A DNA stretch of 64,000 nt from Dissulfurirhabdus thermomarina (GTDB lineage Bacteria; Desulfobacterota; Dissulfuribacteria; Dissulfuribacterales; Dissulfurirhabdaceae): assembly GCF_012979235.1 (NCBI RefSeq), contig NZ_JAATWC010000005.1, forward strand, positions 1-64,000, given 5' to 3'. This document shows positions 19,992 through 29,383 of this stretch, one piece after another. Position numbers and translations under genes: made by a program. Positions within the stretch are counted from its first letter, which is position 1, and every line of letters starts with the position of its first letter. The notes under the pieces are model-generated. The model had not been told where the DNA came from. It did not search any database and saw only the letters and a program-made list of their open reading frames with translations.

Positions 19992-20020
19992 TTGAAGGTA
20001 GGAATATTCCATGTTATAAA
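19992..20020 (+). promoter_or_regulatory. sigma70-type promoter of the cytochrome operon with palindrome in the spacer
   Basis: TTGAAG (19992-19997), a 17-bp spacer and TATAAA (20015-20020) form a convincing promoter in an AT-rich island. Within the spacer lies a perfect 10-bp palindrome, GGAATATTCC (20001-20010), well placed for an operator. Transcription would begin near 20027, leaving a leader of about 75 nt before the ATG at 20102. Confidence 0.62.
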
Positions 20021-20101
20021 AAGAAATGAGCAAAATACCACGATAAATTTCTCCCCTCATGATGAGCGCCGTAAACCTGGTCCCATGAGAGGAAGGCCGG
20101 T

Positions 20102-21535
20102 ATGAAAACCCTTCTTTTTCTGTTTTTCTGCGCGATCTTGCTGGCCGGCGGGCCTGCCGCCGCCGGGGGCTACAGCGGCTCGGCCCACGGTGACGCCACG
20201 GGCGGCGTCAACCGGGCCTCCACCGCGGCCCTGGGCTACGCCGTGGGCAACTGTGCCCATTGCCACGAGATGCACGCCAGCATGAAGGGCATGGAGCCCG
20301 ACCCGGCCGGCGGTGGCCCCTCGGTGCTGGCGCTCTTCGCCGCGGAAGAGGCGGTCTGCTACTACTGCCACGGCACCACCAGCCACAACACGCCGCCCCT
20401 TTCGCGGGACGTGGAGGCCCAGTTCGCCAAGACCTACCGGCACCCGGTGGAGCGGGCCGGCCGCCACCTGGTGAGCACCCTCGAGCACGGGGCCGACCTC
20501 GACGCCGCGAACCGCCACGCCGAGTGCGCCGACTGCCACAATCCCCACACCATCGGGAAGCCCGGGACGGCCTATCACCAGTACAACAGCGCCGCCCCGG
20601 CCGACAACAACCTCGTCTCGAACCTCCTCCTCGGGGCCTGGGGGGTGGAGCCCACCTGGCCCGGGGCCGCCTGGACGGTGCCCACCACCTTCACGGAGCT
20701 GCGCCCGACGCCCGCCGCCCCGGCCGCCGGCGTCCAGAAGGAATACCAGCTCTGCCTCAAGTGCCACTCCTACTACGCCTTCGGCTCGGCGGAGAACACC
20801 GGCACCGGCGTGACCAGCGTCTCCAACGTCTCCGGCGAGTACGTCCTCACGGACCAGGCCCTCGAGTTCGCCCCGGGCAACAAGTCCGGCCACCCGGTGG
20901 TGGTCACCTTGAACAACCGCACCGCGTCGGACGCCCCCAGGGCCCTGGTGGCCTCAAAGAACGGCCCCCGGCTCAAGGCCCCGTGGAGCGCGGCCGTCGG
21001 GGACCAGACCATGTGGTGCAGCGACTGCCACGGCGACGACGCCGCCGCGGCCCCCGAGGGTCCCCACGGCTCGAACACCCGCTACATGCTGGCCGAGGGC
21101 TACACCTGGCCGGTCCGGCCCGACACCGGGAAGTTCTGGACCCTGGGAGACGTGAAAAACGACCAGGGGAGCTGGCCGACGAGACTCCTCTGCGCCAAGT
21201 GCCATCCCATCAAGAACAACGGCAAGTTCCTGAACCAGGTCCACGACAAGGGAGATCATCAGGACAAGTACACATTCGGCACCATCCAGTACCAGGGCGC
21301 GCCGTGCGTCTCCTGTCACGTCGCCGTGCCCCACGGGTCGAAGCGGGGCCGGCTCATCGCCTACTCGAGCGACCCCGATCCCTATGCCGCCTTCCAGGCG
21401 GACGGCACCAAGATGCCCACGCTTTTGGGGTTCCGTAAATCATCGAATCCCGACCAGTACGACAAGAAAAACTGCTACAGCACGGTCAAGGCCTGCGACG
21501 ACCACAAGGATTACAATCCTCCCTACGATCCCTGA
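20102..21535 (+). CDS. exported seven-haem c-type cytochrome
   Basis: Predicted periplasmic or extracytoplasmic electron carrier. The 477-aa protein has a signal peptide (KTLLFLFFCAILLAGGPAAA) and seven CXXCH haem-binding motifs: CAHCH 51-55, CYYCH 86-90, CADCH 142-146, CLKCH 218-222, CSDCH 306-310, CAKCH 364-368 and CVSCH 402-406. Scattered His residues could be distal ligands. Spacing is irregular, resembling cytochromes with doubled CXXCH motifs rather than NrfA or octahaem reductases; no CXXCK is present. ATG 20102 has AGAGGAAGG upstream. ResB- and CcsA-like maturation genes follow directly, suggesting a dedicated haem-attachment machinery. Partner and substrate are unknown. Confidence 0.9.
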   Translation: MKTLLFLFFCAILLAGGPAAAGGYSGSAHGDATGGVNRASTAALGYAVGNCAHCHEMHASMKGMEPDPAGGGPSVLALFAAEEAVCYYCHGTTSHNTPPLSRDVEAQFAKTYRHPVERAGRHLVSTLEHGADLDAANRHAECADCHNPHTIGKPGTAYHQYNSAAPADNNLVSNLLLGAWGVEPTWPGAAWTVPTTFTELRPTPAAPAAGVQKEYQLCLKCHSYYAFGSAENTGTGVTSVSNVSGEYVLTDQALEFAPGNKSGHPVVVTLNNRTASDAPRALVASKNGPRLKAPWSAAVGDQTMWCSDCHGDDAAAAPEGPHGSNTRYMLAEGYTWPVRPDTGKFWTLGDVKNDQGSWPTRLLCAKCHPIKNNGKFLNQVHDKGDHQDKYTFGTIQYQGAPCVSCHVAVPHGSKRGRLIAYSSDPDPYAAFQADGTKMPTLLGFRKSSNPDQYDKKNCYSTVKACDDHKDYNPPYDP

Positions 21536-21568
21536 CCCGGCGCGGCGGCCGGCCCCCGATCCCTTCAC

Positions 21569-22885
21569 ATGACATCCCTTCGCCAGCGGCTTGAAGCGGT
21601 CTTTCTCGGGCGGGCGGTGGTCACCACCCTCCTCGGGGCGTGGCTCGCCTGCGCGGTGGTGCAGGCCGCGGTGCCGGAGGGCCCCCTCCCGGGGCGGCTG
21701 GCGGCGCTGCGGGCGGCGAACCGCTGGGCCTTTGCGGCCTCGGCCCTCGTGGGCCTCGTCTCGCTCGCCCTGGCCATGGACCGGATCCTCCGGCGGGAGC
21801 GGTGCCCCGGGCCCCGCGGGCGGGCCGAGGCGGTGGGGAGGGGCCTCGACGAGGCGGAGTGGCGGCGGCGGCGGGCGCGGATCGCGGCCGGTCTCCGCCG
21901 CCTCGGCTACGCCGCCCGGGGCGGGGCCGGGGCAGGGGAGGCGCTCCGGTTCCGGCGGCGGGGCTCGGCGCGGTGGGGCACGCTGGTCCTCCACGCGGGG
22001 CTCTTCCTCGTCCTTTCCGCCTTCCTCTACCGGGGGCTCCTCGGCCAGCGGGGCGAGGTCCGGCTCATGGAGGGGGACCGGCTCCCGCGCCTCACCCGCG
22101 GCGCCTTCGCGTGGACCGAGACCGGGCTCCTGGCCGGGCCCTTCGACCTGGACTTCGGCCTCGCCCTGAACGAGGTCCGGCCCGTCCCGGATGCGGACGG
22201 CGGCCTCCGCGACGTCCGGAGCCGGATCGAGCTCCTGGACCCCGGCGGCGGGAGCACGTCCCTCGAGCTGGATCTTTCGGCCCCGGTCCGGCGGGGCGGG
22301 GTCCGCCTCTACCAGACCGACCGCTGGGGGTTTGTCGCCACCTTCTTCCTGCGGGGGGCGGGGCGGTTCCTCGCCACCCACTACTTCCTCGATCCGCCCG
22401 GGCGTCCCGGGGGGGGCTTCACCGGGGGCGGGGACTTCCCGGAGACGGGGCTTCGCCTCCGGATGGCCTTCCACCCCGACCTCCTGGACCCCGGCAGCCT
22501 GGAACCCCGGCGCCCCGGCGGGCACCTGGTGGTCTGGCAGGGGGGGCGGAAGCGGTTCGAGGGGCGGATCCTCTTCAGCCAGCGGGTCCGACTCGGGGAC
22601 GAGGGGCTGGTCTTCGGGCGGGTGGCCCGGTGGACGGGGATCGTGGCGGCCCGGCACCAGGGCCGCCTGTTCTTCTACCCGGGGCTCTTCGCCTCGGCCC
22701 TGGGAGCGGCCCTGGTCTACCTGGTGCGGCCGCGGGAGATCCACGTGGTGCGCGGCGCGGACGGCCGGGTGGCGGCGTGGTTCTGGGCGCCCTATCCCGG
22801 CCGCTTCCCGGCGGCGGAGCGGGCGGCGGCCCGGTCGGCCATCGCGGCGGCCCTGGACGGAGGACGAGATGGCGGCGTGGCCTGA
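21569..22885 (+). CDS. ResB-like cytochrome c biogenesis protein
   Basis: System II haem-lyase component, 438 aa, inner membrane with a large periplasmic domain. Hydrophobic segments lie at about residues 15-35, 50-70 and 135-155, with a final one near 370-390 (LFFYPGLFASALGAALVYLV). Between them is a beta-rich region typical of ResB/Ccs1 (for example RGGVRLYQTDRWGF, DLLDPGS). It lies 33 bp after the cytochrome and overlaps the CcsA gene by 17 bases. It is somewhat divergent and GC-rich, with runs of Gly and Arg in cytoplasmic loops. Confidence 0.8.
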   Translation: MTSLRQRLEAVFLGRAVVTTLLGAWLACAVVQAAVPEGPLPGRLAALRAANRWAFAASALVGLVSLALAMDRILRRERCPGPRGRAEAVGRGLDEAEWRRRRARIAAGLRRLGYAARGGAGAGEALRFRRRGSARWGTLVLHAGLFLVLSAFLYRGLLGQRGEVRLMEGDRLPRLTRGAFAWTETGLLAGPFDLDFGLALNEVRPVPDADGGLRDVRSRIELLDPGGGSTSLELDLSAPVRRGGVRLYQTDRWGFVATFFLRGAGRFLATHYFLDPPGRPGGGFTGGGDFPETGLRLRMAFHPDLLDPGSLEPRRPGGHLVVWQGGRKRFEGRILFSQRVRLGDEGLVFGRVARWTGIVAARHQGRLFFYPGLFASALGAALVYLVRPREIHVVRGADGRVAAWFWAPYPGRFPAAERAAARSAIAAALDGGRDGGVA

Positions 22886-23696
22886 GGCCGACTGGGAGAT
22901 GCTGCTCAGCTGGGCGGCGGTGGCGGGCTACGCCGTCTCGGCCGTCGCACTCGCCCTCGGCTCGGGCCTCGGGCGGGAGGGGCTCCGGCGGGCGGCGATC
23001 TGGCTCCTGGCGGCGGGGTTCGGGTGCCACGGGCTGGCCCTCGGGCTCCGCTGGGCCGTGGTGGGCCATGGCCCCTACACCACCACGTACGAGGTCTATT
23101 CCTCCAACGCCTGGGTGATCGCGGCCCTCTTCCTGGCGGCCGCGTGGCGGGCGCCGCGGCTCTTGGCCGCCGGGATCGTGGCGGTGCCCGGGGCCATGTT
23201 CTTCCTCATGCTGGGGCTGGCGAAGTACGAGGGCCTTCCCGGGCTCCCCACGGCCTTCCACTACGGGTGGCTCGCGGTGCACGTCCTCTTCGTGAAGCTC
23301 GCCATCGCCGCCATCCTGGTGGCCCTGGGATGCAGCCTCTGGCTGCTGCGCCGGCCGGGACGGGGGGCGGCGGCCGGCGAGCTCGACCGCTACAACTACC
23401 GGTTCATGGGGCTCGCCTTCTTCTTCTGGACCGTGGCCACGGCCTCGGGGGCCGTGTGGGCGGATCTCCGCTGGGGGCGGTACTGGGGATGGGATCCCAT
23501 CGAGACCTGGTCGTTCATCGTCTGGATCGGGCTCGGGCTGAATCTCCACCTCCAGCGTTTCTACGGCTGGCGGGGCCGCCGGGCGGCCTGGCTCACCGCG
23601 GCCTGTTTCGGCTTCTTCCTGCTCGCCCTCTTCGTGATCCCGCTGGTGGGGGGGAGTCTCCACACCATGTACGTGGTGGGGGAGGGGGCCTCATGA
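22869..23696 (+). CDS. ccsA: CcsA/ResC-family cytochrome c assembly protein
   Basis: Haem-handling membrane protein of system II cytochrome c maturation, 275 aa with about eight membrane helices. The tryptophan-rich WWD segment (WGRYWGWDPIETWSFIVW, about residues 205-222) and flanking His residues (FHYGWLAVHV; SLHTMY) are diagnostic. ATG 22869 follows GGAGGACGAG and lies within the resB 3' end. It acts with ResB to export haem and attach it to CXXCH, here most simply to the upstream heptahaem cytochrome. Confidence 0.9.
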   Translation: MAAWPEADWEMLLSWAAVAGYAVSAVALALGSGLGREGLRRAAIWLLAAGFGCHGLALGLRWAVVGHGPYTTTYEVYSSNAWVIAALFLAAAWRAPRLLAAGIVAVPGAMFFLMLGLAKYEGLPGLPTAFHYGWLAVHVLFVKLAIAAILVALGCSLWLLRRPGRGAAAGELDRYNYRFMGLAFFFWTVATASGAVWADLRWGRYWGWDPIETWSFIVWIGLGLNLHLQRFYGWRGRRAAWLTAACFGFFLLALFVIPLVGGSLHTMYVVGEGAS

Positions 23697-24013
23697 AGCG
23701 GGCGGCCTTCTGGGTGGTGAACGGGTTCTGCCACGACCTGGCCACGGGTCTCTGGGCGGGCTTTTTGGCCGTCCTCTTCCTGCTCGCCGCCGGCCTTCCC
23801 CCGGCGGCGACCCGGTGGGGCCTCTTCCGGCTCTGCCTCGCGGCGCTCTGCCTGGTGGCGGTCACCGGGGCGCTCCGGCTCGTGGAATACCGCCGGCGCG
23901 GGGAGGCGCGCCCGCCCGCCCGGCTGCTCCTCGCCAAGCACGTCCTCCTGGGACTCCTCTTCCTGGGCGGCACCCTGTGGGGCTACTTCCTGGCCGGGAG
24001 GGGGGCGCCATGA
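23693..24013 (+). CDS. small integral membrane protein in the cytochrome operon
   Basis: Protein of 106 aa with three predicted membrane helices (about residues 18-38, 45-62 and 82-102) and a short basic loop (EYRRRGEARPPARLL). A His lies before the first helix (FCHDLATGLWAG), and a Lys-His pair precedes the third (LLLAKHVLLG). The start overlaps the ccsA stop as ATGA and its stop overlaps the next start as ATGA, so it is translationally coupled on both sides. I do not recognise the family; the layout is compatible with a small haem- or quinone-interacting subunit, but this is speculation. Confidence 0.8.
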   Translation: MKRAAFWVVNGFCHDLATGLWAGFLAVLFLLAAGLPPAATRWGLFRLCLAALCLVAVTGALRLVEYRRRGEARPPARLLLAKHVLLGLLFLGGTLWGYFLAGRGAP

Positions 24014-25461
24014 AGCGGCTCCGCGTCCTCCTCGCCACGCCACCCTACCACTGCGGGATGCTCGAGGCCGCCGGCTCCTGGCTGCCCCTGGGGCTCGTCT
24101 ACCTCGCCGGGGCGGTCCGGGCGGCCGGCCACGAGGTCCGGATCTACGACGCCATGTCCCGCTACCACGGATGGGAGGAGATCGGCCGGACCCTCGAGGA
24201 CTTCCGGCCCGACGTGGTGGCCCTGGGGGGCATCACCGCCACGGTGACCGACTGCGTGGACTTCTGCGCCCTGGCCAAGGAGTTCGACCCCCGGGTGGTC
24301 ACCGTCCTCGGTAACGTCCACCCCACCTTCATGTGGCGGGAGCTGCTCGAGGCGGACCGGGCGGTGGACTTCGTGGTGCGGGGCGAGGGGGAGGCGGCCT
24401 TCGCGGACCTCGTGGCCTGTCTCGCCGCCGGGGGCGACCCCGCCCGGGTGGCCGGCATCGCCCTCCGGCGCGAAGGCCGGGCCGAGGCCACACCGGAGCG
24501 GCCCTTCGCGGCGGACCTCGACACCCTGGCTCCGGCCTGGGACCTCGTCGATTGGCCGCTCTACACCTACCATCCCCGGCCGGGGTCGCGGCTCGCCATC
24601 GTCTCGTCGTCCCGGGGCTGCATCGGGGGATGCCGGTTCTGCTCCCAGCGCCTCTTCTGGCAGGGCCGGTGGCGGGCCCGCTCCCCCGAGGGCTTCGTGG
24701 CCGAGCTCGAGCACCTGCGTCGGACCTACGGGGTGGACGTCGCCATGATCAGCGACGAGTACCCGACCCGGGACCGGGCCCGGTGGGAACGGATCCTCCG
24801 CCTCCTCGCCGAGCGCGACCTCGGGGTGGAGCTTCTCATGGAGACCCGTGCGGACGACATCCTGCGCGACGCGGACCTCATGGACCTCTACCGGGCCGCC
24901 GGCGTCAGCCACGTCTACGTGGGCGTGGAGGCGGTGGACCAAGAGCGGCTCGATCTCTATGGCAAGGACATCAAGGTGGAAGGAGGCCGCCGGGCCATCG
25001 AGATCCTGAACGCCGCCGACATCGTCTCCGAGACCTCCTTCGTGGTGGGGACCCCGGACGAGACCCCGGCCTCCCTGGAACGGACCCTGGAACTGGCCAA
25101 GTACTACGACCCGGACATGGCCTTCTTCCTGCCGCTCACCCCGTGGCCCTACACCCCGCTCCACGACCTCTACCGGGACCGGATCGAGGACCGGGACTGG
25201 CGGCACTACAACCTGGTGGAGCCCGTCATCCGGCCCGAGACCATGGACCGGGCCGAGCTCCGGCGGCGGATGCTGGCCGCCACCGGGGCCTTCTTCGCCC
25301 ACAAGTTCGCCCGGCTCCACCGTATGACGCCGGCCAAGCGGGCCTTCATGACCACGGTGCTGCGCCTTCTGGTGGAGCGCTCGTATCTCTCAGGCGAGAT
25401 GGCGGCCACGCTCCTCCCCTTCCGGAAGCTGCTCGGGGCCTTCAAGGAGGCCGAACGATGA
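24010..25461 (+). CDS. B12-binding radical SAM protein (BchE/P-methylase-like)
   Basis: Protein of 483 aa. An N-terminal cobalamin-binding domain (about residues 5-150; VLLATPPYHCGMLEA, PLGLVYLAGAVRAAGHEVRIYD, GNVHPTFMW) is followed by a radical SAM domain. The latter's CxxxCxxC motif CIGGCRFC lies at about residues 207-214 and binds a [4Fe-4S] cluster. Later segments (VYVGVEAVDQERLDLYGKD, FVVGTPDETPASL) are typical of class B methylases and BchE-like enzymes. The likely chemistry is a radical methylation, cyclisation or rearrangement; the substrate is unknown. Its ATGA overlap with the small membrane protein gene ties it to the cytochrome maturation cluster. Confidence 0.88.
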   Translation: MKRLRVLLATPPYHCGMLEAAGSWLPLGLVYLAGAVRAAGHEVRIYDAMSRYHGWEEIGRTLEDFRPDVVALGGITATVTDCVDFCALAKEFDPRVVTVLGNVHPTFMWRELLEADRAVDFVVRGEGEAAFADLVACLAAGGDPARVAGIALRREGRAEATPERPFAADLDTLAPAWDLVDWPLYTYHPRPGSRLAIVSSSRGCIGGCRFCSQRLFWQGRWRARSPEGFVAELEHLRRTYGVDVAMISDEYPTRDRARWERILRLLAERDLGVELLMETRADDILRDADLMDLYRAAGVSHVYVGVEAVDQERLDLYGKDIKVEGGRRAIEILNAADIVSETSFVVGTPDETPASLERTLELAKYYDPDMAFFLPLTPWPYTPLHDLYRDRIEDRDWRHYNLVEPVIRPETMDRAELRRRMLAATGAFFAHKFARLHRMTPAKRAFMTTVLRLLVERSYLSGEMAATLLPFRKLLGAFKEAER

Positions 25462-25462
25462 G

Positions 25463-25478
25463 GACGGCGTCGCAAAGA
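25463..25478 (+). repeat. 16-bp direct repeat, left copy
   Basis: GACGGCGTCGCAAAGA lies one base after the radical SAM stop codon. A copy with a single C/T difference lies at 26859-26874, immediately after the LuxE-like gene, so the two copies bracket that gene. Confidence 0.7.
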
Positions 25479-25482
25479 GGCA

Positions 25483-25513
25483 CCAAGCGGGAGGCTTGGC
25501 GGCGCTTGGCGGC
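25483..25513 (+). repeat. hairpin overlapping a 10-bp tandem duplication
   Basis: CCAAGC (25483-25488) and GCTTGG (25494-25499) form a 6-bp hairpin, and GCTTGGCGGC is duplicated in tandem at 25494-25503 and 25504-25513. The remaining bases to 25645 hold no gene that I recognise. Confidence 0.55.
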
Positions 25514-25645
25514 GGTGCTGCCCATCGCCTCGTCCCTGCGGCGCCCCCCGAGCACACCGCATTCCTCGTCGCCCTCGCACCTGGCAATCGGCGATCTCTG
25601 CTCGGCCGTCCACTCATCAAAGGATTTCTGGCGAGGCCGCCGGCG

Positions 25646-26860
25646 ATGAGGGGCGACTACGGGCTGGAATCGGCCTTCGTCCGGCAACTGGACGAGGAGA
25701 TCGCCGCCTTCGTGGCCGCCGGCCTCGACCACCGGGACGAGGCGGGCTTCAACCGCCTGGCGCTGGCCGAGTTCGAACTCCAGTACCACACCGTGCACCC
25801 GTACCGGGACTTCTGCCGCCGCCTGGGCCGCACCCCGGAGACGGTGACCCGCTGGTCCGAGATCCCGCCGGTCCCCTCCCTGGCCTTCAAGCGGTTCGTG
25901 CTCACCACCTTCCCCCCGGAGGTGGCGGTCCAGTCGTACATGAGCAGCGGCACCACGGACCCCACCCGCCGGGCCAGGGTCTACAGGGACCGGCGGGCGG
26001 TGGAGCTCATGGTGGCGGCCAACGCCCTCCTGGCCCGGAGCTACCTCTTCCCGGACGTGGAGCGGATGCGGATCCTCTTCTTCGCCCCGTCGCCGCGCCT
26101 CGTGCCCGGCATGGGCATGGCGGTGGGGCTCGGGGAGGTCGAGCGGATCTTCGGGGCGGCGGGGAGCGCCTTCCTCGTCGGGCGGCGGGGGCTCGACCTC
26201 GAGCTCCTGCTCACGGCGCTGCGCGAGGCCGAGGCCACCGGGCGCCCCCTGGCCCTGGTGGGGGCCACCTCTGCCCTCATCTACTTTTTCGCCGCCTGCG
26301 AGCGGGAGGGGCTGCGCTTCGTCCTCCCGCCCGGAAGCCGCGTCTGCGACGGCGGCGGCTACCAGGGCCAGTTCGGGGAGTGCAGCACGGCGGAGTTCTG
26401 GGAGCGGTGCCGCCGCGTCCTGGGCGTCCCCGAAACCCACTGCGTCAACGTCCTGGGCATGGCGGAGACCAGCACCAACTACTTCGACAACGTGCTCCGG
26501 AACCACCTGGACGGGGTCGAACGACCCCGCTACAAGGAGCTTCCGCCCTGGACGCGCCTGGCGATCATCGACCCCGAGACCCTGGAGCCGGTGGCGCCGG
26601 GGGAGGCGGGGCTCCTTTGCCACTACGACCTCACCAACCGGGCGCAGATGTTCGCCGTCCAGACCGACAACGTGGGCCTGGCCGTGGAGGACGGCTTCGA
26701 GATCCTCGGCCGGTGGCGGAAGCGGGACGGCCGGGTCTACCTCGACCGGACCTTCCGTCACCCCGGCGGCCCGGTGGTGAACAAGCTCACGGAGTTCCTG
26801 CTGCGGCGGCGGCTCGACCGGATCGGCCGGGTCCATGCCCGGCTCGCGGCCAAGGCATGA
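25646..26860 (+). CDS. LuxE-like acyl-protein synthetase / acyl-activating enzyme
   Basis: Protein of 404 aa resembling LuxE-family acyl-protein synthetases, which activate a fatty acid as acyl-AMP and transfer it to an enzyme Cys. The Ser/Thr/Gly-rich ATP loop SYMSSGTTDPTRRARVYRD lies at about residues 92-110. Other family-like segments are FHTVHPYRDFC, GMAETSTNYFDNVL and LCHYDLTNRAQMFAVQTDNVG. No luxC or luxD reductase/transferase genes accompany it. It follows the radical SAM gene after a 184-bp gap and is bracketed by a 16-bp direct repeat. ATG 25646 has only a weak GAGG upstream. Acyl activation is inferred from family resemblance; the acyl group and acceptor are unknown. Confidence 0.78.
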   Translation: MRGDYGLESAFVRQLDEEIAAFVAAGLDHRDEAGFNRLALAEFELQYHTVHPYRDFCRRLGRTPETVTRWSEIPPVPSLAFKRFVLTTFPPEVAVQSYMSSGTTDPTRRARVYRDRRAVELMVAANALLARSYLFPDVERMRILFFAPSPRLVPGMGMAVGLGEVERIFGAAGSAFLVGRRGLDLELLLTALREAEATGRPLALVGATSALIYFFAACEREGLRFVLPPGSRVCDGGGYQGQFGECSTAEFWERCRRVLGVPETHCVNVLGMAETSTNYFDNVLRNHLDGVERPRYKELPPWTRLAIIDPETLEPVAPGEAGLLCHYDLTNRAQMFAVQTDNVGLAVEDGFEILGRWRKRDGRVYLDRTFRHPGGPVVNKLTEFLLRRRLDRIGRVHARLAAKA

Positions 26861-26874
26861 TGGCGTCGCAAAGA
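26859..26874 (+). repeat. 16-bp direct repeat, right copy
   Basis: GATGGCGTCGCAAAGA matches 15 of 16 bases of the copy at 25463-25478 and overlaps the stop codon of the LuxE-like gene. It could be a recombination scar, the border of a short mobile repeat, or a genome-wide dispersed motif. Confidence 0.7.
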
Positions 26875-26893
26875 ATTAAAGACAATTAAAGAC
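26874..26893 (+). repeat. tandem duplication of AATTAAAGAC
   Basis: Two perfect adjacent copies of AATTAAAGAC (26874-26883 and 26884-26893) form a small AT-rich patch right after the 16-bp repeat and before a possible small gene. Confidence 0.65.
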
Positions 26894-26908
26894 ATGCGGA
26901 GGCGGTCC

Positions 26909-27088
26909 ATGGAAGAGAGAGACCTGGAGATCGGCCTGGAGATGATCGGGGCGGACGAGATCGGCGGCGGGTGTTCCACCGTGGCGGACCGGATGTTGGA
27001 AGCGGCCGAAGCACAGCCGGCCGAGGCGGACCGGGCGGCGGGGCCGGGGGAGCCCCGGGCGTCCCGGGACGAGGCCGCCGGGCGCTGA
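26909..27088 (+). CDS. possible small acidic protein
   Basis: A 59-aa reading frame beginning MEERDLEIGLEMIGADEIGG, with GGAGG seven bases before the ATG. The composition is acidic and helical (Glu/Ala-rich), with one Cys and no membrane segment. An upstream ATG at 26894 would add five residues. It lies 48 bp after the LuxE-like gene on the same strand. No family is recognised; the good ribosome-binding site is the main support. Confidence 0.4.
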   Translation: MEERDLEIGLEMIGADEIGGGCSTVADRMLEAAEAQPAEADRAAGPGEPRASRDEAAGR

Positions 27089-27235
27089 CGGCGCTTCCGC
27101 TCCGGCGGACACCTTTCCCGAGAAATGGTACAGGCCCGGCGCGGGCGCCGGGGGTGAGGGGTCCCCCGTGCGCCGTGTGCCGGGTCGGCAGAGGCCGGCG
27201 TGGACCCCGACGACATCACGTGAGGGAGGATGGAG

Positions 27236-28060
27236 ATGAACCTACGGAGATTCTTGGCAGTGACCTTGGCGGCCGTGTTCTGGCTGCCGGCGGCCGTGTG
27301 GGCCGGTGAGTGGGGCTACGAGGGGCAGACGGGGGTCTACCCGCCCGACGAGTGGGGCCACGTGGCCCCGGCATGCGACGGGAGCCGGCAGTCGCCCATC
27401 GACATCGTGACCGCCGAGGTCCAGCCGGTGGACCACGTGGGGCTCCGCATCCACTACAAGCCGGACACGGTCTCGGTCCTCAACAACGGTCACGCGGTGA
27501 CCGCCTATCCGGATGACCGATATATAGAGGTGGAGGGCGCCGACGGGACCTGGGAGCGCTACCGGCTGGTGCAGTTCCACTTCCACACCCTGAGCGAGCA
27601 CACCGTGGACGGCCGGCACTTCGACATGGAGATGCACCTGGTGCACGCCAACGATGCCTACCTGGCGGGGCAGCCGGGCGGAAAGCTCTCGGTGATCGGG
27701 GTCTTCATCCGGAAGGGTCGAGAGAACAAGGCCCTCCGCGACATCTTTGACGATCTTCCCGAGGCCGTTCATCACGAGGCGGGCGAGGGGGAGATGCTGA
27801 CCGCCCGGGTGCCCGTGGACTTCGACAAGCTCCTTCCCCGAAAGAGCGCGGTCTTCGCCTACCCGGGCTCTCTCACCACCCCCGGTTGTGACGAGATCGT
27901 CTCGTGGTTCGTCTTCGAGCGGCCCATCCAGATGTCCGTGGCGCAGATCGAGGCCTACCGGGAGCTCTACCGCGACCCGGAGACCGGGGAACGCTACGAC
28001 ACCAACCGGCCCACCCAGCCCTTGAACGGCCGGGTGGTTTCCTACGGCCCGCTGGATTGA
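27236..28060 (+). CDS. periplasmic alpha-class carbonic anhydrase
   Basis: Interconverts CO2 and bicarbonate in the periplasm. The 274-aa precursor has a signal peptide (FLAVTLAAVFWLPAAVWAG). The alpha-CA zinc ligands are His115 and His117 (LVQFHFHTLSEHTVDG) and His134 (MEMHLVHAND). SRQSPIDIVTA, VLNNGHAV, YPGSLTTPGCDEIVSW and QPLNGR are further hallmarks. Two Cys (CDGSRQS and PGCDE) probably form the conserved disulfide. ATG 27236 has GGGAGG at a good distance, whereas ATG 27230 is too close to it. The gene appears monocistronic, followed by two hairpins at 28094-28177. Confidence 0.95.
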   Translation: MNLRRFLAVTLAAVFWLPAAVWAGEWGYEGQTGVYPPDEWGHVAPACDGSRQSPIDIVTAEVQPVDHVGLRIHYKPDTVSVLNNGHAVTAYPDDRYIEVEGADGTWERYRLVQFHFHTLSEHTVDGRHFDMEMHLVHANDAYLAGQPGGKLSVIGVFIRKGRENKALRDIFDDLPEAVHHEAGEGEMLTARVPVDFDKLLPRKSAVFAYPGSLTTPGCDEIVSWFVFERPIQMSVAQIEAYRELYRDPETGERYDTNRPTQPLNGRVVSYGPLD

Positions 28061-28300: not shown

Positions 28301-29383
28301 ATGCCGAGACCTTTCGCACCGAGGCGTTTCGCCGGGCGGGCCGCGGCCGTCCTGGGCCTCGTGGTGCTCTCGGTCCTCGCGGGGGCGCCCCGTCCGGCCC
28401 GGGCGGGTCCCGCGGGGGTGGAAGGGGCGACATGGCGCCTCGAGTTCGACAACGACGTCTTCCTCGAGAAGGACAACCAGATCTCCAGCGGGTGGTCCAT
28501 CCAGCACCACACCGCCGCCGCCCGCCGCTGGGCGGACGTGGGCGGCGGCCATGGCTCCCTCGGCCGCCTGGGCGGCGCGATCCCCACGCTGGGGGGCGAG
28601 GGGCTCCTCCGGCGGTCGGGGATCGCCGTGGGCCAGATCATCCAGACCCCGGACGACGTCTCTCGGCGGGATCTCATCCGGGACGACGTGCCCTATGCCG
28701 CGGCCCTCACCTTGCAGGCCACCTGGTATGCCTACGACGACGAGGAGTTCCGGGGTTTCGAGGTCACGGCCGGGGTCTCGGGGCCGCCGGCCCTGGGCGA
28801 GGAGGTCCAGAAGGCCACGCACCACCTCCTGGGCGACAAGGACCCCAAGGGCTGGAACAACCAGATCGAGACCGAGCCGCTCCTCAACCTCAACTACATG
28901 CGCAAGCGGAAGGTGTGGCACGGGGGGCGGCCGGAGGGCTGGTCGGCCGACGCCGCCGTGGACGGCAACGTGGGCCTGGGTAACCTCTTCACCCAGGCCA
29001 GCGTGGCGCTGGAGCTGCGCCTCGGGCGGAACATGCCCGGCGGCTTCGTCTACGTGCCCGACCCCATCGGGCTCAGCATGCACTACGTGGCGCTCCTCGA
29101 ACCGCCGAGGCCGGAGCGGGCGGCCCTCTACGCCTCGCTGGTGCTGCGGGGCACGGCCTTCGCCCGGAACCTCTTCCTCGACGGCACCCTGCTGCGGCCC
29201 GGGCCCGGCGTGGACAAGCGGCCGCTGGTGGGCATGCTGATCGCCGGCCTCCACTACGAGCGCCGGGACTGGGGGCTCCACCTCGGCATCTTCCTCACCA
29301 CCGACGACGTGGACACCGGCCAGGCCAAGGCATCGGAAGGACACGAGCGCCTGGGGACCATCGACCTGGAGTGGCGGTTCTGA
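28301..29383 (+). CDS. lpxR: LpxR-family lipid A deacylase (outer membrane)
   Basis: Outer-membrane enzyme of the LpxR/DUF2219 family, which removes the 3'-acyloxyacyl chain of lipid A. The 360-aa precursor has a signal peptide ending near PARAG. Family segments are WRLEFDNDVFLEKDNQISSGW (the N-D pair and the following Ser/Gly region), DDVPYAAALTLQATWY, and EEVQKATHHLLGDKDPKGWNNQIETEP with its His. Alternating hydrophobic strands and a terminal Phe (LEWRF) fit a beta-barrel. ATG 28301 has AGGGAAG upstream. The presence of LPS in this organism is implied. Confidence 0.85.
   Translation: MPRPFAPRRFAGRAAAVLGLVVLSVLAGAPRPARAGPAGVEGATWRLEFDNDVFLEKDNQISSGWSIQHHTAAARRWADVGGGHGSLGRLGGAIPTLGGEGLLRRSGIAVGQIIQTPDDVSRRDLIRDDVPYAAALTLQATWYAYDDEEFRGFEVTAGVSGPPALGEEVQKATHHLLGDKDPKGWNNQIETEPLLNLNYMRKRKVWHGGRPEGWSADAAVDGNVGLGNLFTQASVALELRLGRNMPGGFVYVPDPIGLSMHYVALLEPPRPERAALYASLVLRGTAFARNLFLDGTLLRPGPGVDKRPLVGMLIAGLHYERRDWGLHLGIFLTTDDVDTGQAKASEGHERLGTIDLEWRF

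Follow-up and report, generated by a model that had tools for sequence, protein, structure and literature searches.

In a 64,000-nucleotide stretch of the genome of the hot-vent bacterium Dissulfurirhabdus thermomarina (contig NZ_JAATWC010000005.1, positions 1 to 64,000; hereafter the window), a gene chain encodes a heptahaem cytochrome (CYT), the ResB and CcsA subunits of a System II cytochrome c synthetase, a 3-helix membrane protein (TM3) and a B12-binding radical SAM enzyme (RSAM1), followed by a LuxE-like ligase and a 59-residue protein (SM64). RSAM1, ResB and a separate lineage of CcsA co-occur and have evolved together, and genes for multihaem cytochromes lie near them. We read the locus as a dedicated cytochrome c maturation module in which RSAM1 would modify a tetrapyrrole for a private System II synthetase; the probability of this reading is put at about 0.48. 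The genes are as follows.

20102–21535, + strand: CYT, secreted heptahaem c-type cytochrome; seven CXXCH motifs, non-canonical haem motif absent
21569–22885, + strand: ResB, System II cytochrome c synthetase subunit; PF05140, 42.9 bits (cut-off 24.6)
22869–23696, + strand: CcsA of the RSAM1-associated clade; PF01578, 89.2 bits; haem-handling motif WGRYWGWD
23693–24013, + strand: TM3, 3-helix membrane protein; conserved residues, AlphaFold model
24010–25461, + strand: RSAM1, B12-binding radical SAM enzyme; B12-binding and Radical_SAM Pfam domains above cut-off, CxxxCxxC at C204/C208/C211
25646–26860, + strand: LuxE-like acyl-adenylating ligase, optional part; PF04443, 57.8 bits (cut-off 24.9)
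26909–27088, + strand: SM64, 59-residue protein, optional part; homologues adjoin LuxE/RSAM1 in other loci

Gene order and conservation

The chain from cytochrome to radical SAM gene given in a preliminary description of the window was confirmed by the coordinates: CYT and ResB are separated by a 33-bp gap, and the ResB/CcsA, CcsA/TM3 and TM3/RSAM1 pairs overlap by 17, 4 and 4 bases, respectively. Exactly seven CXXCH motifs were counted in CYT, as had been claimed. RSAM1 and the LuxE gene lie 184 bp apart, with TTG at 25496 as an alternative LuxE start.

All seven genes were found in identical order in a complete 2.29-Mb genome from another family of the same phylum (G305), with identities of 71% (cytochrome), 43% (ResB), 67% (CcsA), 45% (3-helix protein), 69% (radical SAM enzyme), 76% (LuxE) and about 56% in the core of the small gene. 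In G305 the LuxE start overlaps the stop of the radical SAM gene by 4 bases, which makes both LuxE and the small gene parts of the unit; with the whole set syntenic there, the 59-residue frame, listed earlier as a possible gene, is real. Close order-mates of D. thermomarina have neither an RSAM1 orthologue nor the LuxE gene. A second module is present in the organism's own genome (locus L031), consisting of a heptahaem cytochrome, ResB/CcsA, an NHL propeller, a 3-helix protein and an RSAM1 (52% identity), with LuxE absent.

RSAM1 relatives were sought in 84,980 species genomes by a pattern scan with the RSAM1 alignment; 173 were found and 80 of them retained. Simple open-reading-frame rules were used to call genes in related loci, several of which are short contigs of metagenome-assembled genomes. 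The hosts, both bacterial and archaeal, represent about ten phyla: Thermodesulfobacteriota, Nitrospirota, Methanobacteriota [Ca. Methanoperedens and the anaerobic methanotrophic (ANME) group ANME-2], Actinomycetota, Bacillota (Thermincola), Acidobacteriota (Geothrix), Myxococcota, Elusimicrobiota, Lentisphaerota and Deferribacterota; Geotalea is also among them. Many of these organisms are metal reducers or electroactive. The earlier claim of one conserved unit is upheld by the synteny with G305 and by this recurrence; the gene order, sought in other Desulfobacterota, is complete in G305, and the spread exceeds that phylum.

With 8 kb or more of flanking sequence on each side of RSAM1, 32 loci could be compared, and 30 of them contain ResB and/or CcsA. 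The ligase was accompanied by a protein with at least three CXXCH motifs in 25 of the 32 and stood alone in five; a cytochrome occurred without the ligase in none, and two loci had neither. Within 5 kb on both sides of RSAM1 in 47 loci, ResB or CcsA was present 37 times, a multihaem protein 27 times, the 3-helix protein 18 times and LuxE six times. The core of the module is RSAM1, ResB/CcsA, the 3-helix protein and variable multihaem cytochromes.

The dedicated haem lyase

ResB and CcsA are adjacent and both score above their Pfam cut-offs (42.9 and 89.2 bits), which is the domain composition of a System II synthetase. CcsA belongs to a divergent lineage, scoring 127.8 bits against the CcsB equivalog model TIGR03144 (cut-off 187.6). 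In two trees made by quick search, the CcsA proteins encoded beside RSAM1 form one clade that excludes housekeeping CcsA, with Shimodaira–Hasegawa-like approximate likelihood-ratio test (SH-aLRT) supports of 97 and 100. This clade holds 57 of the 59 module CcsA, its five further members also come from RSAM1 loci and all of the 19 divergent CcsA controls, drawn from the lower end of a CcsA list, fall outside it. D. thermomarina has four CcsA genes, two of the housekeeping type and two beside its two RSAM1 genes.

A profile was built from ten module CcsA and applied to 395 genomes of the phylum with a threshold of 270 bits. 18 genes scored at or above the threshold, followed by a gap down to 250 bits. 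RSAM1 family members occur in 12 of these genomes; module CcsA was detected in 11 of the 12 and in none of the other 383 (Fisher p = 1.5e-20), and in 8/9 versus 0/383 after removal of the three genomes that had contributed to the profile (p = 7e-16). Many of the species are close and hence non-independent, and the positives are spread over about ten families. The proposed link between haem ligation and the B12 radical SAM enzyme is thus borne out, and the association of RSAM1 with the haem lyase is tighter than with any cytochrome.

NrfI-type CcsA/ResB proteins are a precedent for a dedicated lyase. The module shares with System II synthetases and Wolinella NrfI the ResB and CcsA domains, the WWD haem-handling motif and an operon with the target cytochrome; the differences are that its CcsA form a separate clade linked with RSAM1 and TM3 and that its targets have canonical CXXCH. 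CcmF paralogues adjoin giant multihaem cytochromes in ANME archaea, and NrfE, which is analogous to NrfI, is cited in the same report (PMC9012536). Like the ANME arrangement, the module places a dedicated lyase beside very large cytochromes of extracellular electron transfer; the ANME CcmF is a System I protein and no radical SAM enzyme is described with it (PMC9012536), whereas the module combines System II with RSAM1.

Relationship of RSAM1 to BchE

The RSAM1 family is monophyletic (83 members; SH-aLRT 98 in one tree and 100/99 in another). RSAM1 scores 388 bits against the BchE model TIGR02026 and 149 bits against the next-best family, and it shares 36–39% identity, across 89–94% of its length, with authentic BchE encoded on phototroph plasmids; identity to other B12 radical SAM proteins is about 25–37%. 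55 family-specific positions were defined as invariant in RSAM1 and not common among other B12 radical SAM proteins; BchE keeps 34–35 of these residues and other B12 radical SAM proteins keep 1–23. RSAM1 has the B12-binding and radical SAM architecture of BchE, the CxxxCxxC cluster and BchE-specific motifs, the shared motifs being the YHxGxxExAGxW loop, FCSQxxFW around the cluster, DExPT, TPWP and YN. By these comparisons BchE is the closest known relative of RSAM1.

RSAM1 consistently has W221, E278, Y303, Y366 and Y381 where BchE has Y, N, S, W and F, and the substrate or the reaction outcome is therefore probably different. The setting also differs: BchE acts in chlorophyll synthesis, whereas RSAM1 genes lie among those for haem ligation in hosts that are not known phototrophs. 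BchE itself was first reconstituted in vitro in 2026 (PMC13142503).

The AlphaFold model of RSAM1 [predicted local distance difference test (pLDDT) score 90.7] has the cobalamin radical SAM fold. Its structural matches were AprD4 (Z 32.0, root-mean-square deviation 3.1 over 411 residues), CysS (Z 29.2), MgmA (Z 27.9) and OxsB (Z 27.6). The non-methylating enzymes AprD4 and OxsB match over the whole model, yet they are only 16–23% identical to RSAM1 and act on other substrates.

Cytochromes and the 3-helix protein

CYT has a Sec-type signal peptide without a lipobox, which disfavours a lipid anchor. Besides the G305 orthologue (71% identity), its relatives include a nine-haem protein in genome G382 and a 36% identical paralogue in the second module of D. 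thermomarina; no relative was found among solved structures at E 0.01. The preliminary description had asked whether homologous cytochromes regularly occur without the radical SAM and LuxE-like genes. Full-length CYT orthologues were found only with RSAM1 (3/3 genomes), and genomes without RSAM1 yielded only distant, partial homologues.

Module cytochromes belong to several different families and carry 5 to 52 CXXCH motifs. Together they contain 1068 canonical CXXCH, no CXXCK and about 119 possible longer motifs, CYT having its seven canonical ones only. A lyase specialized for odd haem motifs was considered and rejected, the motifs being mostly canonical.

The TM3 family has invariant H14, D15, G59, R62 and K82 and near-invariant H83, with a His-Asp pair in helix 1 and a Lys-His pair at the start of helix 3. 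The AlphaFold model of TM3 has three helices (pLDDT 92). A positive loop suggests that both pairs lie near the cytoplasmic face, and the conserved residues would fit a haem or metal site. The window protein did not match CopD (PF05425, cut-off 32.1), one family member reaching 21 bits, and a fold search of the PDB returned only helical bundles and designed proteins with E above 4.

Proposed function and alternatives

The pairing of RSAM1 with the synthetase is observed across genomes; the chemistry proposed here is inferred. In the cytoplasm, RSAM1 would act on haem or a late precursor of it, either methylating this tetrapyrrole or, in the manner of BchE, oxidizing or cyclizing one of its propionate side chains. 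The altered tetrapyrrole may then pass to TM3. By analogy with their families, ResB and CcsA would transport haem and form the thioether bonds, in this case moving the altered haem across the membrane and ligating it to the CXXCH motifs of a module cytochrome. The product would be a c-type haem with a potential or packing tuned for extracellular electron transfer, which in D. thermomarina would probably serve the disproportionation of elemental sulfur. In the subtype with LuxE, the ligase may act by activating a carboxylate, either that of a haem propionate or that of an acyl donor, and the small cysteine protein could be the carrier; this is the least certain step.

A modified haem would explain why the private lyase follows RSAM1 and not one particular cytochrome, the likeness of RSAM1 to a porphyrin enzyme and the haem genes that adjoin the module in some loci (hemA-hemC in L144; HemA in L136 and L151). 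Haem, the cytochrome, a lipid anchor and a quinone-like partner had all been named as targets; haem fits best, given the BchE kinship and the tracking of the lyase by RSAM1, and the lipid anchor is disfavoured. The module had also been presented as undescribed, and a search of the open-access literature, with subscription journals largely outside its scope, found no description that brings together a radical SAM enzyme, ResB/CcsA and multihaem cytochromes.

Several points weigh against haem modification by RSAM1. RSAM1 falls below the cut-off of the BchE equivalog TIGR02026 (388 versus 481 bits), above which a profile search of the whole D. thermomarina genome found nothing, and the branch that makes BchE its nearest neighbour in the tree is weak (82/25). 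The chlorophyll pathway partner BchM is absent from the genome (best score 35 bits, cut-off 158.9). For most B12 radical SAM enzymes the reaction is methylation of a substrate other than a tetrapyrrole, and CcsA paralogues can specialize on an apocytochrome, as in the NrfI-type precedent. Furthermore, the housekeeping CcsA controls were drawn from one phylum, and 8 of the 47 RSAM1 loci have no ligase, 3-helix or multihaem protein within the 5-kb flanks.

RSAM1 might instead modify the apocytochrome polypeptide before export, for example by C-methylation, with ResB/CcsA present merely for haem attachment. Peptide and protein methylation is common among B12 radical SAM enzymes, the RSAM1 model resembles, among others, MgmA, the glutamine methylase of methyl-coenzyme M reductase, and multihaem cytochromes are present in 25 of the 32 loci. 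This alternative is nevertheless unlikely: the linked cytochromes vary widely in haem number and family while the CcsA lineage is constant, the ligase occurs without a cytochrome in five loci and the reverse in none, and the sequence of RSAM1 is nearest to a porphyrin enzyme.

Alternatively, the CcsA lineage could be specialized for large or tightly packed multihaem apocytochromes, with RSAM1 making another cofactor, a lipid or a quinone for the same chain. NrfI-type lyases would fit such an arrangement. So would the dedicated CcmF paralogues beside giant ANME cytochromes (PMC9012536). It is also judged improbable, as the module cytochromes carry almost only canonical CXXCH and the module CcsA lineage was found in no RSAM1-free genome among the 395 sampled.

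That LuxE, the 59-residue protein and RSAM1 form an acyl-carrier system or a peptide-modification system resembling those of ribosomally synthesized and post-translationally modified peptides (RiPPs), merely sited in a cytochrome operon, is very unlikely. The small family does have a conserved EM[IV]G...C core and a variable tail and is always beside LuxE; it is, however, present in only 6 of 96 RSAM1 loci and cannot explain the RSAM1 core, and no RiPP family was matched. A chance or merely co-regulated cluster of ordinary neighbours without a common function, with which the lack of the cluster in order-mates would agree, is scarcely credible and is already contradicted by the identical order in G305, the spread over about ten phyla and co-occurrence p values below 1e-15.

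LuxE-like ligase and small gene

The ligase belongs to the LuxE acyl-protein synthetase family by sequence (PF04443; E = 3.5e-16 with the LuxE structure 7xc6_E) and scores 52.8 bits against the LuxE equivalog NF052244 (cut-off 550). No LuxC partner is present in the operon, and the window protein has no cysteine at a C-terminal column that is 91% Cys in LuxE proteins of LuxC-type operons. LuxE adjoins RSAM1 in 15 of 96 loci (any flank) and was rejected as a core partner; the system first outlined as containing LuxE does include it in the unit, as in G305, but as an optional part. LuxE relatives of 40–45% identity in other Desulfobacterota (41–44% in L068, L069 and L071–L075) lie in a conserved operon with a LuxC-like gene (recognized by eye), a homocitrate-synthase-like gene and another radical SAM gene.

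Homologues of SM64 were found in G305, L080, L081, G382 and L125, always beside LuxE and RSAM1. Their core consensus is [IE]xx[ED]M[IV]G, followed after 5–7 residues by C. No match to known families, including RiPP precursors, was obtained.

Module variants

The L031 module is adjoined by proteins with 26, 16 and 5 CXXCH motifs. Those with 26 and 16 (L031 1956–4343 and 4319–5530; G000:C1 ~673–677 kb) lie no more than 10 kb from this module. Extracellular electron transfer has been proposed for D. thermomarina, a thermophilic sulfur disproportionator, and a 26-haem protein was singled out (Ward 2020; PMC7478628). The 26-CXXCH gene of L031 is very probably this putative extracellular cytochrome.

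An unrelated second family of B12 radical SAM proteins (about 448 residues; nearest model TIGR04013, far under cut-off) was noted at L098 2241–3584, L152 2419–3789 and about 15 further loci, in modules of Nitrospirota, Geotalea and Elusimicrobia, where it has CcsA on one side and the 3-helix protein or LuxE on the other. In Geotalea (L152 4194–9847) FtsX-type ABC permeases, an ATPase and an FtrD-like Fe–S membrane protein are encoded in one run with the module, ahead of a giant cytochrome with 37 CXXCH. In Methanoperedens-type archaea (L095, L102, L108, L111, L116 and L149) a thioredoxin-like gene on the opposite strand lies between RSAM1 and ResB–CcsA, as expected for a System II apocytochrome reductant.

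Promoter, repeats and flanking genes

The D. thermomarina genome is about 71% GC (71.1% published for strain SH388T; PMC7463578). A TTGAAG-17-TATAAA arrangement with GGAATATTCC at 20001–20010 can be read by eye within an AT-rich island. A stricter promoter scan reported none, a one-mismatch palindrome of the GGAATATTCC kind arises in 41 of 100 shuffles, and among module loci only the window's own has such a palindrome at the operon start. The single promoter with a palindrome in its spacer, as first described, was not supported, and promoter plus palindrome was dropped as a common regulatory signature. The 12-mer GGCGTCGCAAAG occurs at 25466–25477 and 26862–26873, ahead of the LuxE and 59-residue genes; it was equalled in 10 of 100 shuffles and is possibly a small intergenic repeat. 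On the 3' side of the operon are an alpha-type (eukaryotic-type) carbonic anhydrase (27230–28060) and an LpxR-like outer membrane protein (28301–29383).

Implications

On present evidence the locus is a variant of dedicated cytochrome c maturation; proof of a modified haem would make it a new class. We tentatively suggest, as a possibility somewhat short of an even chance, that bacteria and archaea trading electrons with minerals or partners share an unrecognized class of c-type cytochromes, whose modified haem would be produced by a cobalamin radical SAM enzyme sister to BchE and ligated by a private CcsA lineage; BchE and RSAM1 as sisters would tie the origin of chlorophyll chemistry to respiratory cytochromes. 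As a possible sister of the chlorophyll ring-E cyclase in non-phototrophs, seen here in a functional context, RSAM1 also bears on the rise of chlorophyll synthesis. Models of multihaem cytochromes and nanowires usually assume plain haem c. If the proposal is true, the potentials, spectra and structures of some of them, including those of methane-oxidizing archaea and metal reducers, would need to be read again.

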